DNA of 34,533 nucleotides from Herpetosiphonaceae bacterium (GTDB lineage: Bacteria > Chloroflexota > Chloroflexia > Chloroflexales > Kallotenuaceae), in contig DASUTC010000036.1 in NCBI GenBank assembly GCA_036374795.1, forward strand, positions 1 through 34,533, in the 5' to 3' direction. Made by a program: the position numbers and the translations under genes. Positions 15,302 to 21,939 of this stretch are shown one piece after another. Below the pieces are notes generated by a model. The model was not told the origin of the DNA. It did no database searches and saw only the letters and a program-made list of their open reading frames with translations. Each line of letters begins with the position of its first letter. Position 1 is the stretch's first letter.

Positions 15302-17773
15302 TCAGCGATAGTAGCTCAGCCGCGAGTCGAGCACCACGGCAACCTGCACTGGAAAGCCGAGCAGCGTATGCAGCGTATCCGCGATCAGCGGCGCGTAGGA
15401 CTCTTGAAGCTTATCGCGCGCAAAGATGTTGGGCGTGCCCACGATCGCCTGCTGGTCTTCGAGCTGAACCAGCGATGTTTCTCTGATCCACGTTTCAAAC
15501 TCGCTGTAGGGCAGATGTTTGCGCAGGCTATCCAGGGCTACATGCCAGACCTGCTGCGGCTGCTCCGCCTGCTTCGATCCGGCTGCTTGCGGCTGCTGAT
15601 CGGCAGCGGGAACGGCACAGGCGGGACACAAACCGCCGCCGGTGTAGCGACCACAGGCACACAATCCCGGCGCGAGCGTCTGCGCGCCCGAGACACCAGC
15701 GCGCTGTGGGCCGCGTGGCAGCTTCGGATGATCCTGTGGCAGGTGGCCTGAGCGAATGCCCCACGCCAGCCAGGCGGCTCGATCTTTAATCTCGGCGCGG
15801 CGCACATCTGCCTCCGCGATCCATGCCTCGATCTGCTCCTGGGTGATCGCCGCCGTCAGGATCGCCGGATTAACGCCCTCACGCTCTAGCAGCAGACGGC
15901 GAGCATCGGATGGCGCAGGGACATCCTGTAGCGCTTCAGGGACAGATGCGGCCTTCGCGCGTGTCCCTGGAGGTCGCCTGGTAGCGCAGGGATCGGCAGG
16001 TTGCAATGCGCGCCGGGCAGCCGCCTGCTGGTTATTGCTGATCGCCCGCCGCAGGTAGGCTACCGAGAGCTGCGGCGGTGTCGCCGCCTGCTCCGCGCGC
16101 TGAAGCACCTCCCAGCATTCATCGGGCTGCCGCTCGAAGAGCGCTTTGAGCACATGATACTCAGGGACACTCACGTCGCGCAGGCTGGTCGTCTGGCCGA
16201 TCGAGCGATACGCCTGGAGGAACTGAGGCCATATCGCCGACGATTCGGCTGAGCCGCGCGCTTGAACCAGGGACAACGCTTGCTGGACACACTGATGAAA
16301 CACAGGCAGCTTGAGCGCATCGCCAAAGCGGCGCGGACGCAGGGACTCCGGCAGGGACATGACGGCCCGCAGCGCCGCCAGTACGACACCTATGGGCGTA
16401 TTCGTTCGCTTGAACAGACGATAGGCCGCTTTTTTCTCGCCTTCGGTATAGGCGTAGCGCTGCTGACCGCCGTACAAGATCTGCTGCACCGCCTGCCAGA
16501 AGTGGCTGTCGTGCCGGGTGCTCGAAAGCTCATCGTCGCGGATGTGCGGCGCTACCAGCGGAATGTCTCCAACGGCTGGCTCGATCAATGACCGAGCCAG
16601 CCGAGTCCCGCCGATGGACTGGATCGGAGTCTCCCCAAAAGGAGGATTCGATGTCTCATGACTCCAAGGCATAATGATCAGATCACGCAGCAGGGACTCG
16701 GCGGAGACATCCACCTGCTCCTGAGATTCGCGCTGCTGCTGCGCTTCTTCGCCGCCTGTCCCTAGAGGTCTTCGAGTCACTGCAAGACCCTGGGGACTCT
16801 GCGGGGACTCGGCGGAGACATCAGGTGTTTGAGTCACTGCAAGACCCTCAGGGACACATGAGGACGCGATTGTCCCTGGCATGCTCGACCCACGCTCCGT
16901 TGTCCCTGGCACACCTGTCCCTGCCGCATCTGTCCCTGGCACTGCCGGTACCCCGGCACCCGGCGATGTGTTCGGTATTCCCGGTGTTCCATTATGTCCA
17001 CCACCACGGGGATAACGCCGCTGCGCTGAGAGAAGCTGATTGGCGATGGCGCGATTCTCCTGCATCAGCCGCGCAGCTCGGCGTTGCGACCACTCGACCC
17101 AGGCGCGGGCCTGCTGGCGGTAGGGCTGAAGCGCGTCTACGCCATGCAGATGGGCAAATAGCCTGGCCCAGCGCTCGTCTTGAATCAGCGCCGGGAGCAG
17201 CGACGGCCACGCGCCGTCAGGATCGAAGAGGTCTTCGGGATCGGTGTTTTGCAGCATACCCGCCTGGCCCAGCGATCGCAGGGCAGCCTGAGCATCCTTC
17301 TGGCGAGTAGCGCCGAGTGGATCGGCGGCGGCAGGTTCGAGCGCGACCAACAGCGCATCCAGCACGCGCTCCAACATCTTCCAATCCAGCACCGGATGAT
17401 CCAGCCGTCCGACGACATAATAGGTGGCTGCCGTGTGGTGAGGACGCTCTATGTCGCCGCTGGAGCCGTACTGGACTTCGACATGCACCAGCCCGACGGT
17501 AGATAGCAGGTATTCCGGCCCCTGGATCGCCCAGCCGGTACGCCGTCCCAGGATACGCTGAATCCGTTGTTTGGTAGGACCATCGGGATCGAGGATGAAC
17601 GGCCTGAGCATCCGCTGATTGTCGAACATATCCCGCAGATAGCTGTAGATGAACACTCCATCTGCGGTCAAGATGGGTGCCCAATCGTAGGTTATGTCGC
17701 GCCATTCAGAAGATACCCCGATGTCGCCTGCGCGGAAGAGCGCTGGTAGCCCATCGGGTCCAGGGGTTGACAT
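15302..17773 (-). CDS. Putative replication initiator with C-terminal DnaA_N-like domain
   Basis: This 823-residue protein starts at ATG 17773, with a GAGG ~10 nt upstream on the minus strand. Residues ~10-130 look like a compact DNA-binding (winged-helix-like) domain, not matched to a named family. Residues ~250-370 are low complexity, rich in P, G, T, S, with internally repeated GLAVT and DVSAES units. A mainly helical middle follows (~390-690). A zinc-ribbon-like motif C705-x-C707-x8-C716-x2-C719 precedes residues 742-817, which read like DnaA domain I (VWHVALDSLRKHLPYSEFETWI...ED...IVGTPNIFARDKLQESY...LLGFPVQV). In DnaA that domain self-associates and binds the replicative helicase or its loaders. 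There is no Walker A or AAA+ core, so this is not DnaA. With parA and parB nearby, a plasmid-type initiator that recruits helicase through this tail is the best inference. The gene also contains an array of TGTCCCTG octamers. Confidence 0.7.
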   Translation of the reverse strand: MSTPGPDGLPALFRAGDIGVSSEWRDITYDWAPILTADGVFIYSYLRDMFDNQRMLRPFILDPDGPTKQRIQRILGRRTGWAIQGPEYLLSTVGLVHVEVQYGSSGDIERPHHTAATYYVVGRLDHPVLDWKMLERVLDALLVALEPAAADPLGATRQKDAQAALRSLGQAGMLQNTDPEDLFDPDGAWPSLLPALIQDERWARLFAHLHGVDALQPYRQQARAWVEWSQRRAARLMQENRAIANQLLSAQRRYPRGGGHNGTPGIPNTSPGAGVPAVPGTDAAGTGVPGTTERGSSMPGTIASSCVPEGLAVTQTPDVSAESPQSPQGLAVTRRPLGTGGEEAQQQRESQEQVDVSAESLLRDLIIMPWSHETSNPPFGETPIQSIGGTRLARSLIEPAVGDIPLVAPHIRDDELSSTRHDSHFWQAVQQILYGGQQRYAYTEGEKKAAYRLFKRTNTPIGVVLAALRAVMSLPESLRPRRFGDALKLPVFHQCVQQALSLVQARGSAESSAIWPQFLQAYRSIGQTTSLRDVSVPEYHVLKALFERQPDECWEVLQRAEQAATPPQLSVAYLRRAISNNQQAAARRALQPADPCATRRPPGTRAKAASVPEALQDVPAPSDARRLLLEREGVNPAILTAAITQEQIEAWIAEADVRRAEIKDRAAWLAWGIRSGHLPQDHPKLPRGPQRAGVSGAQTLAPGLCACGRYTGGGLCPACAVPAADQQPQAAGSKQAEQPQQVWHVALDSLRKHLPYSEFETWIRETSLVQLEDQQAIVGTPNIFARDKLQESYAPLIADTLHTLLGFPVQVAVVLDSRLSYYR
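15916..16938. repeat. Array of TGTCCCTG/CAGGGACA octamers inside the rep gene
   Basis: Eleven exact copies are present. CAGGGACA is at 15916, 15937, 16162, 16268, 16352 and 16849; TGTCCCTG is at 15962, 16871, 16901, 16916 and 16931. One-mismatch copies are at 16340, 16691 and 16757. They encode different peptides (Pro-Gly-Thr, Val-Pro-Glu, Ser-Leu) in different frames and orientations, so the constraint acts on DNA. By comparison, an 8-mer would be expected ~0.03 times by chance over both strands of 1 kb of random sequence. These could be initiator-binding iterons of an origin inside the gene. Confidence 0.75.
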
Positions 17774-18078
17774 GATGCTTTAACCTCTCTCTCGGATAGC
17801 GCCTGTCAATTACGTCGTTGTTGCCAGAGTGTCCCGCCGCCGATGAGCAGTTTGCCCTCTGCCGCTCGACAGCAATCATCACAACCCCTACAGGTCGTCC
17901 GCCGTTGGGTCGTGGATCGCCTACATGCTCCGCTGCGCTGACTTGCCTGGAAGCCACGTCATCACGCGACGAATGCCAGCAACCTGCGCCGATATCAGTG
18001 TAGAAAAAGAGAGTGCAAATGCCTAGAGCTTTGCGCGCAGGTTGCGTGCAGGTTTTCGCAGGAGCAGCGTGGTTGAGT

Positions 18079-18112
18079 GCAGTTCTGTGCAAAAAGTACT
18101 GCACATAACTGC
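18079..18112. repeat. Palindromic element, copy 1
   Basis: GCAGTTCTGTGCAAAAAGT (18079-18097) is repeated exactly at 18404-18422. Here its inverted partner is GTACTGCACATAACTGC, so the outer GCAGTT/AACTGC and inner TGTGCA/TGCACA arms pair with one mismatch. It is a candidate binding site for the initiator or the neighbouring regulator. Confidence 0.6.
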
Positions 18113-18403
18113 TGTGAGGCGTCCGATTGCCACCCGTAAAGCGCGGCGGCTGTCTCGTCTGCTGCCGATCGTGGCTATATTATGTCGACTTCTTGGCGAT
18201 CGATGTCCATGTTTCGAGTGTGCCGTGAGGCAGGGGTTGAAGACGGAAAAACGGAATAAGGAACAAAGTTCCAGGGAGACGACGACCGAAATATCCCTTT
18301 GTGATGCGCAATTTCGTACGCTACATCCCAAACACAATCCTTGATCTGGACGTGCCGCCGCTGATCAAGAGGCCGCCGTCGAGTGACGTTACTACAGTTT
18401 CGC

Positions 18404-18437
18404 GCAGTTCTGTGCAAAAAGTTTTGCGCAGAACTGC
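18404..18437. repeat. Palindromic element, copy 2 (near-perfect)
   Basis: The left half GCAGTTCTGTGCAAAA pairs with the right half TTTTGCGCAGAACTGC, with one mismatch in 16 and a 2-nt centre. It lies ~60 bp upstream of the RecG-like gene start and shares 19 identical bases with copy 1 (18079). It is a likely operator. Confidence 0.65.
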
Positions 18438-18468
18438 ACACATGCAGCATGGTATGGTTGCCGAGATG

Positions 18469-18495: not shown

Positions 18496-19503
18496 GTGAA
18501 TGAACTGGTTGCCCATATCGGCGATGAGCGCATAGATACATTACCCGTCGACCGTGCAGAACTATCGGATCTGGATCTGGATGCTGTTGCCCATCACATT
18601 GCCAGGGCAACCGAGAGCGACCGCTATGATGGCGGCACGAAAGATCCGATGGCCTTCTTGCGCGAGATGCGCTGCGTGGTCGATCGCGACGGACGCTTGA
18701 TCCCCACGCTGGCCGGCCTCCTGATCTTCGGGCGTCGTCCGCAGGCGTTCCTCGAACACACCGATATTGCCCTGGCGCATTTCGCCGGAACACGCCCCGA
18801 TCTTGTCACCGAGACGCTCCACTTTCGCCGCTATGGGGGCACGCTCACCCAGCAGATCGATGAGGTAGAGAAATACCTGTGGAGCAATACCCGCCGGAGC
18901 ATTAACACCGACTCCGGCCCGCAGCGTGAGGAGCGGCCTGATTATCCGCGCAAAGCTCTCCGCGAGCTAACTGCCAATGCCGTCACCCACCGCGACTATA
19001 ATTTGCTCGGCGCGCGCACGCAGATCTCGATGTTTACCGATCGGATCGAGTGGCGGTCGCCTGGTGGCCTTCCGCCCGGCATCACCGAGGATAATATCTT
19101 GTACAGCGGCAGCCGCGCGCGCAACCCCACGATCGCCCAGTTGCTGTACCAGTCTGGCTATATCGAGGCGTTCGGCATGGGCCTGCCCACGGTGATCAAC
19201 CTGCTCAAGCTCAACGATCTGCCGCCGCTCGGCATGCGCGACACCGGAGCGTCGTTCATCGTCACGATGCGCGGACCCGAAGCGCCGAATGTTGCGACGC
19301 TGACGCCGCCGCGCCGCGCGCTGCTGGAGCTAGCTCGAAAGTATCGCGAGATAACGCTCGAACAGGCGATTCGCGCCTCAAGCGACCGAGCCCGGCGCAC
19401 CGTCCAGGCTGATCTCAAGTATCTGGTCGAGAATCATTTCTTGCGTGCGGTCGGCCAGTCGCGCGACCGGCGCTATATTATCGCCGAGGAAACCGAGTGG
19501 TGA
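18496..19503 (+). CDS. RecG-like ATP-binding transcriptional regulator (HATPase_c_4), lacking AlbA_2 domain
   Basis: The gene starts at GTG 18496 with GGAGG 6 nt upstream (18485-18489); an in-frame stop at 18472 rules out a longer form. The 335-residue product matches the C-terminal two thirds of the Schlafen/AlbA_2 + HATPase_c_4 family often annotated as 'ATP-dependent DNA helicase RecG-like'. The visible parts are the linker (LPTLAGLLIFGRRPQ), the GHKL N-box (ALRELTANAVTHRDYN), SPGGLPPGIT, and a C-terminal winged helix (ITLEQAIRASSDRARRTVQADLKYLVENHFL). The usual N-terminal AlbA_2 domain is absent. It is divergent from rep and lies next to the palindromes, so autoregulation or control of rep is plausible. 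It is not a helicase. Confidence 0.8.
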   Translation: MNELVAHIGDERIDTLPVDRAELSDLDLDAVAHHIARATESDRYDGGTKDPMAFLREMRCVVDRDGRLIPTLAGLLIFGRRPQAFLEHTDIALAHFAGTRPDLVTETLHFRRYGGTLTQQIDEVEKYLWSNTRRSINTDSGPQREERPDYPRKALRELTANAVTHRDYNLLGARTQISMFTDRIEWRSPGGLPPGITEDNILYSGSRARNPTIAQLLYQSGYIEAFGMGLPTVINLLKLNDLPPLGMRDTGASFIVTMRGPEAPNVATLTPPRRALLELARKYREITLEQAIRASSDRARRTVQADLKYLVENHFLRAVGQSRDRRYIIAEETEW

Positions 19504-19711: not shown

Positions 19712-20770
19712 CTAAAGCTGCTCAAGCAACTCGTCCAGGCTCTTGCGCAGCGCCTCGACCTCCGCACGCCACGCCTGGCGATTGCTCGGATCGGTGCTAC
19801 GACGCATTTGATGTCGTAGCTGCTCCACATTACGCCGCATCCGTGCCAGACGCTGCACGACATCGCGCTCTGCCGTATGGCGCATCTTTGGTCCTGGCGA
19901 TGCAGGCTCTTCCTCAGATATGTCAGCCGTCTCTCCCACAGGCCGCTGACGATACGCCTCGATCAGCGCGTTGACCACAGTGGTTGTTACATCGGGCGTC
20001 TCCGCCAGCACCCGCAGCATATCTGTTGCTTCCTCGGCGCTCAACTGTCCCGCATTCAGGGCCATATGCAGTGGGCGTAACGTCCACTCAGACCAGCCGT
20101 AGCGCATGATGATCGACTGGCCTTCGGGAGAGAAGCGCAGGAGACGGAGAAGATCCTGACGGCGCTGAGTCGAAAGCCGCATCCGCTCCTCGATAATGGT
20201 CCAGGCGACATCGGCACCTGTCTCTGCCTGGATCGCACTACGCAGCGCCATGATCGCCCAGGCACGCTCCATATCCGAAAATCCTTCACGCCGCTCGTTT
20301 TCTTCAAACTGATGCAGCAATCGCTCGGTATCTTTCGGCCTGGGCACCTCGACGACCCATAGCGTTGGCAAGCCGACCAGCTCTGCGGCGCTCCAGCGGC
20401 GCTGCCCGTTCAGCAGACGATGCGTGATCGCCGGGTTTTGCGGATCGCTGTCGGCATAGACGATCACCGGCTGGATCTGCCCGTGCTCTTGCATCGACAT
20501 GCCAAGCTCGCGCAAGCTGGCAACCACCGCCGCCGCCGCCCGATCTCCGGACTCTGCCTGACGGAGTAGCTGTTGAGGCTCAGGCAGGTGCCGCAACTGG
20601 TGGGGGTCCGGCGCGATCGTTTCAGTTGGCAGATACGTCAGCGGCAAGCCCCGCTCTGTCGCGCGCTGCACCGTTTCCTCCGGCGTTGCGCCGAGGAGAA
20701 AGGCAAGATCGTTATCGTCGGCTGCCGGACTAAAAAACTGGTCCAGGTTGATCGATTTCTTCTTACTCAC
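19712..20770 (-). CDS. parB: ParB-family partition protein
   Basis: This 352-residue protein has a ParB/Srx-fold N-terminal domain, visible as LGMSMQEHGQIQPVIVY, then LLNGQRRWSAAELVGLPTLWVVEV (the ParB box with G-Q-R-R-W in place of G-E-R-R) and ENERREGFSDMERAWAI. A helix-turn-helix region follows (STQRRQDLLRLLRFSPEGQSII). A C-terminal coiled coil (~295-352) would support dimerisation. In this family ParB binds parS, spreads as a CTP clamp and stimulates ParA ATPase. Its start overlaps the parA end by 8 bp, so the two are translationally coupled. The probable target is the palindrome cluster upstream of parA. Confidence 0.88.
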   Translation of the reverse strand: MSKKKSINLDQFFSPAADDNDLAFLLGATPEETVQRATERGLPLTYLPTETIAPDPHQLRHLPEPQQLLRQAESGDRAAAAVVASLRELGMSMQEHGQIQPVIVYADSDPQNPAITHRLLNGQRRWSAAELVGLPTLWVVEVPRPKDTERLLHQFEENERREGFSDMERAWAIMALRSAIQAETGADVAWTIIEERMRLSTQRRQDLLRLLRFSPEGQSIIMRYGWSEWTLRPLHMALNAGQLSAEEATDMLRVLAETPDVTTTVVNALIEAYRQRPVGETADISEEEPASPGPKMRHTAERDVVQRLARMRRNVEQLRHQMRRSTDPSNRQAWRAEVEALRKSLDELLEQL

Positions 20771-21530
20771 CGAGGCGACCTTTCAGCTCATCGACAAGCT
20801 CACGAAATTGTCCGGCGGATCGAGCTGTCTTACGGTAGCGGAAGATGCTTTCTTTGGCAGCAAAGCATTCTCGAAGCGGCGCATCACGACCGATCATCGT
20901 GCGAAACACCTGCGATCCGAACTGTGAGCGCAGGTACTCCTGAATCTGCCGATCGGCTCCTGAACGGCCCTCATAGTCGTTGATCAGTATCAGTGGCGCT
21001 GGGAGATGGGGTGAGTATCTGCCCTGAACTCGCGCCACGGTTTCGTTGAGTTCGCCCAGACCTTCCAAACTGAGCGCCTGCGAGAGCACCGGCGCGACCA
21101 CGAGATCGGCGGCGATGAGCGCGTTGAAGACGACCGCGCCTTTGGCGGGGGGACAGTCGATCAACACATAGTCGATCGGGAGGTCGATGCGCAGCGCATC
21201 CTTCAGCACAAACAGCCCTTCGACGTTCGACCCTAGCTCCAGGGCTGCTTTTGCCAGCAGCGCATGAGCCGCGCACAAAACAACGTTGTGCTCGCCGGTT
21301 CGCAGCAAGGTTGCCGGCAGCTCTGCCTGGCTGGATAAGATCGCGTAGGCCGAACGATCGACAGGCACGCGCGCTTTCGTAACTCCAAGCCACTCAGTTG
21401 CGTGCCCCTGGCTATCAAGATCGATGACTAAGACTCGGTGCCCTGCTAACCCCAGCGCAGCGGCAAGGTTGACGGTAGTTGTCGTTTTACCCACGCCGCC
21501 CTTTTCGTTCGCTATGGCGATGACTTGCAT
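20763..21530 (-). CDS. parA: ParA-family partition ATPase
   Basis: This 255-residue protein starts at ATG 21530. It has the deviant Walker A motif KGGVGKTT (residues 10-17, signature Lys10), the Walker A' strand VLVIDLDSQGHATEWLG and Walker B VLIDCPPAKG. There is no N-terminal helix-turn-helix, so it is Soj-like in size. ParA ATPases bind DNA non-specifically and move ParB-parS complexes. It is first in the parA-parB operon. The promoter lies ~530 bp upstream, with the parS-like palindromes inside the leader, so ParB binding could also repress the operon. Confidence 0.93.
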   Translation of the reverse strand: MQVIAIANEKGGVGKTTTTVNLAAALGLAGHRVLVIDLDSQGHATEWLGVTKARVPVDRSAYAILSSQAELPATLLRTGEHNVVLCAAHALLAKAALELGSNVEGLFVLKDALRIDLPIDYVLIDCPPAKGAVVFNALIAADLVVAPVLSQALSLEGLGELNETVARVQGRYSPHLPAPLILINDYEGRSGADRQIQEYLRSQFGSQVFRTMIGRDAPLRECFAAKESIFRYRKTARSAGQFRELVDELKGRLGE

Positions 21531-21625
21531 AGACTCTCCTGGCTAATTGCTGGGAGCCTCTATTGTACTACAGGTTGCCTCAGACGCGAAAGAAGCATAG
21601 CCGCTCCTGGGTCTGGCGTCAGCAT

Positions 21626-21939
21626 GGGTATGAGCCCTCATACCCTCGTACATCGTTTGGGGCATGAGCCCTCATACCCCATAATGTACAACGATGCAAC
21701 AACCTTAGTAGGGTATGAGCCCTCATACCCCTATTGTACGACGGTGCAACGCCTGATCGCACCGAGCAGCCGTATTGACGTTGTAGAGATGAGATGTTGA
21801 TCTTTGAATCATTATTTTGGATCTGTTGTTGGGTGGCGTACGGCAGACGCTCAGAGCACGGCGGTGCTGAATACAAACAAGAGATCCATGCTCGATGAAT
21901 GTGCGCGCTGCTGTAAGGAGGGTATGAGCCCTCATACCC
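21626..21939. repeat. Four-copy palindrome cluster, candidate parS centromere
   Basis: GGGTATGAG-CC-CTCATACCC (9-bp arms, 2-nt centre) occurs at 21626-21645, 21711-21730 and 21920-21939, and with one mismatch (GGGCATGAG) at 21660-21679. After copies 2 and 3 a second shared block, TGTAC(A/G)ACG(A/G)TGCAAC, follows (21685 and 21736). The arms are strongly conserved while the intervening DNA differs. The position directly upstream of parA-parB makes this the likely ParB-binding site. The rest of the 21531-22319 gap is AT-richer and holds no supported gene. Confidence 0.8.

Follow-up and report, generated by a model that had tools for sequence, protein, structure and literature searches.

Where does the replicon carried by this DNA begin to replicate? 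The window, by which we mean the whole 34.5-kb stretch that was analysed, contains an initiator-like gene, rep, with a repeated octamer, TGTCCCTG, inside its coding sequence. The original prediction read these octamers as a candidate origin lying within the gene. Together with its neighbours, rep has the layout of a plasmid-like replicon backbone:

15302-17773, minus strand: rep, initiator-like ORF of 823 codons (823 aa)
18496-19503, plus strand: recG-like gene (RecG-C-terminal-like, HATPase_c_4), divergent from rep
19712-20770, minus strand: parB (ParB_N and parB_part matches)
20763-21530, minus strand: parA (AAA_31 and ParA_partition matches)
21622-21939, upstream of parA: four parS-like 20-bp palindromes, GGGTATGAGCCCTCATACCC

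The four GGGTATGAGCCCTCATACCC palindromes are likely parS, and elsewhere in the genome we found one near-copy, with 2 mismatches, on contig C267. The window contig (C36) has no terminal overlap that would show circularity. There was no match in Rfam, and no sigma-70-like promoters were found in the region.

An octamer array inside the rep gene

The exact octamer occurs 11 times in the window, six times on the minus strand and five times on the plus strand, and all copies fall between 15916 and 16938. An exact search of the whole window found none outside the rep ORF. Three copies with one mismatch lie within the same span, at 16340, 16691 and 16757, and in the rest of the window such copies occur at about chance level. 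Our recount therefore agrees with the original prediction on the number and orientation of exact copies in about 1 kb of coding sequence, on the three single-mismatch copies, and on the two clusters of three and five. The boxes are distributed as follows, with the protein divided into domains by paralogue alignment:

16849-16938, both strands: main box cluster, in linker 1, with CAGGGACA at 16849 (minus) and at 16871, 16901, 16916 and 16931 (plus)
16691-16698, minus strand: box CAGGGACT at alignment column 438, the one box position that all six close homologues share
16162-16359, minus strand: single boxes in the region coding for the middle domain, at 16162, 16268 and 16352, with CAGGGACT at 16340
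15916-15969, both strands: second box cluster, in linker 2, at 15916 (minus), 15937 (minus) and 15962 (plus)
aa ~27-240: N-terminal domain
aa ~255-400: linker 1
aa ~400-590 and 620-690: middle helical domain
aa ~590-620: linker 2
aa 740-801: C-terminal DnaA domain I (Pfam DnaA_N, PF11638, E 1.3e-12)

We compared these counts with two null models. Dinucleotide shuffles of the window contained a mean of 0.99 copies of TGTCCCTG and at most 4, compared with the 11 observed. In synonymous shuffles, codons were permuted inside the gene, which keeps both the protein and the codon usage; 1000 such shuffles of the window rep gave a mean of 0.50 copies and again a maximum of 4. Even the most repeated octamer in these shuffles, whichever word it was, reached at most 7, and thus 11 copies are significant even after correction for the choice of word. 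The original prediction had also suggested a genome-wide count. The 7.75-Mb genome contains 129 copies, or about 1 per 60 kb, a frequency far lower than the 1 per 225 bp found in rep. The reversed octamer, used as a control, has 45 genomic copies.

The octamers do not encode one recurring peptide. As had been claimed, those in the window are read in different frames, as PGT or AGT in the sense orientation and as MSL or LSL and SVPE, CVPE or DVPA in two antisense frames. Across homologues the peptides are likewise unrelated (PGT, SVPE, LSL, RAT, GSDT and QRQ, from both orientations and several frames). The densest clusters coincide with the two variable protein linkers, where constraint on the protein is weakest. 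With these results, we conclude that the octamer array in the window rep is confirmed.

Box spelling in rep homologues

The source genome encodes four further full-length rep paralogues (C347a, C347b, C184 and C56). A genome of the same genus (G001, a Chloroflexota MAG, JAFAYS010000814.1) has an orthologue at 67% identity, incomplete because its N-terminal part runs beyond the contig end, and another genome, G004, has a distant homologue. The G001 orthologue was the only match when a genome-contig collection was searched with rep. Plasmid, phage and viral-contig collections gave no match to rep, and a search with the middle domain in 400 sampled genomes from the phylum found no further homologues. 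A match in G048 was dropped as a rep homologue, being a membrane protein.

All six close genes (the window gene, the orthologue and the four paralogues) carry an intragenic array. The distant G004 homologue has no comparable array, so the expectation that rep homologues share the array held for the close genes but not for this one. The spelling of the box depends on the gene: CAGGGACA is present 11 times in the window rep and 8 times in G001, CAGCGACA 9 times in C347a and 8 times each in C184 and C56, and C347b has 5 copies of a CAGCGACT/AGCGACTC-like form. The fourth base of the motif CAGNGACW is near-uniform inside each gene and different among genes. It is G in 13 sites and T in 2 in the window; G in 11, A in 5 and T in 1 in G001; always C in C347a, C184 and C56; and C in 5 and A in 1 in C347b. 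In each of the six genes, no synonymous shuffle out of 1000 reached the count of the gene's own octamer. When octamers of every sort were considered, the top count in C184 was unexceptional, being reached by 179 of 1000 shuffles, and the box sites of C184 and C56 are not independent, since they lie inside a tandem linker repeat of roughly 21 codons. Other ORFs at these loci have no comparable octamer except in frames overlapping the rep genes; one 6.5-kb ORF has higher octamer counts, which are accounted for by its length.

We also compared box positions. Between the window and G001, three octamers are exactly kept, boxes 16162 and 16268 among them, and two more are kept as motif sites, against a background 8-mer identity of 11%. 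At alignment column 583 both genes have a box at the same place in opposite orientation, and the column-438 box is the one shared by all six. Some boxes fall inside conserved protein domains and not solely in linkers. Close pairs of TGTCSCTG fall mostly in rep genes: the genome has 9 direct pairs, 7 of them in reps, and 6 inverted pairs (each listed on both strands), 4 of them in reps. The reversed-pattern control gave 0 in either arrangement. On the suggestion that the octamers persist at the DNA level among homologues, we find that in the six close genes the arrays are kept, that their spelling is gene-specific and that they exceed synonymous shuffles. Longer degenerate boxes of 9-12 bases with mismatches separated from shuffles less well than the exact octamer.

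Arrays in the more distant rep genes of G447 and G003 look similar by eye and are marginal against synonymous shuffles, and we give them no weight in the argument. In these DnaA_N-type reps (L064:5817-7949 in G447 and L041:8247-9782 in G003), linker repeats are followed by the AT-richest segment of the gene. This statistically marginal resemblance suggests a wider pattern of linker repeats with an AT-rich segment in DnaA_N-type reps.

A candidate origin within rep

The sole family match of the Rep protein is DnaA_N at its C-terminus, with 47.6 bits compared with a curated cut-off of 24.6. Pfam gave no RepA_N (PF06970) match in the whole protein or in the N-terminal regions of 7 homologues, and no Rep_3 domain in the Rep protein; a lambda O-like family was found in neither Pfam nor PHROG, and RepC in neither Pfam nor NCBIfam. 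A model of the middle domain (pLDDT 76) aligned best, and weakly, with DnaD (9a5c_B; Z 6.6, rmsd 2.5 over 64 residues; next 4.9), and Foldseek returned no match to it at E <= 0.001. From this model, the middle domain is possibly DnaD-like. The model of the N-terminal domain was poor (pLDDT 54). A different rep in G003, which is of the same genus, encodes a protein that begins with DnaD_N and ends with DnaA_N, and therefore an architecture of DnaD with DnaA domain I exists in these bacteria. Profile comparison of the window Rep with this G003 protein found no similarity except in domain I. A distant protein of G447 has this Rep's N-terminal domain in common with it (hhalign E 1e-4) and carries DnaA_N at its end.

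Next to the column-438 box is an AT-rich segment:

16622-16696: candidate DNA-unwinding element, 49% AT compared with 37% for the gene (99th percentile in the gene)

The segment directly after column 438 lies between the 94.5th and 99.6th percentile of AT inside each close gene. The window copy is modest and not significant against the codon null, which reached it in 151 of 1000 shuffles. Three paralogues are beyond that null, with 0 of 1000 (C184), 9 of 1000 (C56) and 14 of 1000 (C347a) shuffles reaching the observed value, and in the same three GTTAACG is repeated within the segment in more than one frame.

On sequence grounds, the array is best explained as a set of sites within rep to which the Rep protein would bind, and it is probably the replication origin itself. 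We consider it fairly likely that the octamers are the core of Rep-binding boxes in the protein's own gene and that, with the AT-rich segment, they form a theta-type intragenic origin. The original proposal of such an origin gains support from the arrays in six homologues, the near-confinement of box pairs to reps and the AT-rich neighbour. The origin would lie chiefly in the DNA coding for the linker between the N-terminal and possibly DnaD-like middle domains. The N-terminal domain would bind the boxes, many Rep molecules would assemble along the array, and the AT-rich segment beside the conserved box would open. The C-terminal DnaA domain I would then recruit the host DnaB helicase. Domain I has an established role in helicase recruitment in DnaA, and we infer the same for Rep by analogy. 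As box spelling changes with each Rep paralogue, we propose that several replicons sharing a cell would avoid cross-reaction.

The origin could instead lie in the 720-bp region that separates rep from the recG-like gene, a real competitor whose repeats the original prediction does not mention; the octamers would then serve as Rep sites for copy control by handcuffing or titration. This region is 45% AT compared with 37% for rep and contains two 41-bp repeats with 34-bp palindromes, 325 bp apart:

18072-18112, rep/recG-like intergenic region: palindromic repeat copy 1 (GCAGTTCTGTGCAAAAAGTACTGCACATAACTGC), candidate origin or operator
about 18397-18442, rep/recG-like intergenic region: palindromic repeat copy 2

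The repeats contain a DnaA-box-like TTTTGCACA; no exact DnaA boxes were found. The palindromic element recurs beside DnaA_N-type reps, in at least three copies upstream of the G004 rep, which lacks the octamer array, and also near the DnaD_N/DnaA_N rep of G003. Centred on GCAGTTCTGYGCAAA, it is present in three genomes that belong to one family (window 18072-18442, L065:11250-11577 and L041:9971-10253). These observations favour an intergenic origin. Against it, the source genome has no further copies of the palindromes, and the C347a, C184 and C56 loci have no match to the element yet all have arrays. The palindromes also track the recG-like gene, which accompanies them in all three genomes (the source genome, G004 and G003) and in G004 and G003 again adjoins DnaA_N-type rep genes. 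The element could be an origin, or it could consist of operators of the recG-like gene. On balance, we regard an intergenic origin with octamers for copy control as unlikely. A lone palindrome, CAGGGACAGCATTGCTGTCCCTG, lies near a contig end at C220:163-185 (G000), outside any rep paralogue found.

Could the octamers instead be operators inside the gene, used by Rep or another regulator to repress rep? A short box in both orientations, with some inverted pairs, would suit an operator, but the boxes extend over 1 kb at a long distance from the start codon, downstream of it, none is in the promoter region, and the adjacent AT-rich segment is left unexplained. This makes repression through the boxes very improbable. 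We find it harder still to credit a repeat of protein-level or mutational origin (a low-complexity linker or slippage) with no function in DNA. The linkers are indeed variable, and those of C184 and C56 are repetitive, but the codon-shuffle test argues against this explanation, as do the different frames, the use of both strands, the boxes in conserved domains and the gene-specific respelling. The genomic excess of the octamer over its reversed control could also indicate a genome-wide signal (a Chi-like, uptake or segregation motif) clustered here by accident, a reading we give almost no weight because clusters are near-confined to rep genes, and the paralogues are spelled differently.

Comparison with known initiators

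Iteron theta plasmids of the Rep_3 type normally have their iterons outside rep. The window gene resembles them in having repeated boxes, here putative Rep-binding sites, and a candidate AT-rich unwinding element; it differs in that the boxes are inside rep and in lacking a Rep_3 domain.

Origins inside initiator genes are already known from phage lambda, RepA_N and repABC replicons. The original prediction drew the analogy with RepA_N, which is apt in layout; lambda O and the repC of repABC are equally close. In phage lambda, the central part of the O gene contains the iterons and an AT-rich tract (PMC7466680). The window rep likewise places repeats and an AT-rich tract within the initiator gene, but lambda has 4 longer iterons, whereas rep has short octamers in both orientations over 1 kb. 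Its protein also has no lambda O family match and ends in DnaA domain I.

In pSK41 (RepA_N), the Rep boxes are central in rep, and the linker that they encode is dispensable (PMC5703833). The window boxes, whose binding by Rep is predicted, similarly occupy linker-coding DNA between an N-terminal and a possibly DnaD-like domain. Unlike the pSK41 protein, the window Rep has no RepA_N Pfam match, is 823 aa rather than 319 aa long and has the extra C-terminal DnaA domain I. Its replicon also differs in belonging to a GC-rich host and in having two box clusters.

In the repABC plasmid p42d, the origin and an AT-rich region are within repC, silent mutations of the AT-rich region abolish replication, and no repeats were found in the repC origin (PMC3155836). 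Like repC, the window rep contains an AT-rich region, here a modest one, and has parA/parB-like genes nearby. It differs from RepC in the repeats of its array, in the lack of a RepC match and in the divergent gene that separates rep from parAB.

By analogy, we propose that the window Rep would work like lambda O, pSK41 Rep and RepC, yet would not be a member of these groups. We do not assign it to the lambda O, RepA_N or RepC families because it has no sequence match to any of them. What is new is the type of initiator, with a C-terminal DnaA domain I and possibly a DnaD-like middle, together with short boxes in two orientations and two clusters; the different spellings used by paralogues of a single genome are also new. 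We found no description of such a system in the open-licence literature. More tentatively, and with somewhat less than even confidence, we suggest an undescribed Chloroflexota initiator family that combines a DnaD-like module with DnaA domain I and has its origin inside its own gene. In such a family, box spelling and protein would co-diversify, giving each coexisting replicon a private box code.

If the intragenic origin is correct, a further initiator type, in Chloroflexota, would have its origin in linker-coding DNA, which would suggest that this placement is a recurrent solution. The differently spelled paralogues of one genome would then be a natural experiment on the co-evolution of initiator and origin specificity, and could supply replicon parts for the Chloroflexota, a phylum for which genetic tools are few.

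The paralogue loci have neighbours of their own. On contigs C347, C184 and C56 (L031, L033 and L034), a conserved gene of ~315-335 aa directly precedes three of the paralogous reps; it has no Pfam match and, judged by eye, looks receiver-like. C347b is flanked by a response regulator on its upstream side and by an RNase_T exonuclease gene on its downstream side. Contig C347 (206 kb; L031 and L032) carries two rep paralogues and an HTH/DnaA_N protein in about 85 kb, which may mean that one replicon has several origins or that these are integrated elements. The HTH/DnaA_N protein of the source genome (L032, about 945-2252) has a weak O-like PHROG match.
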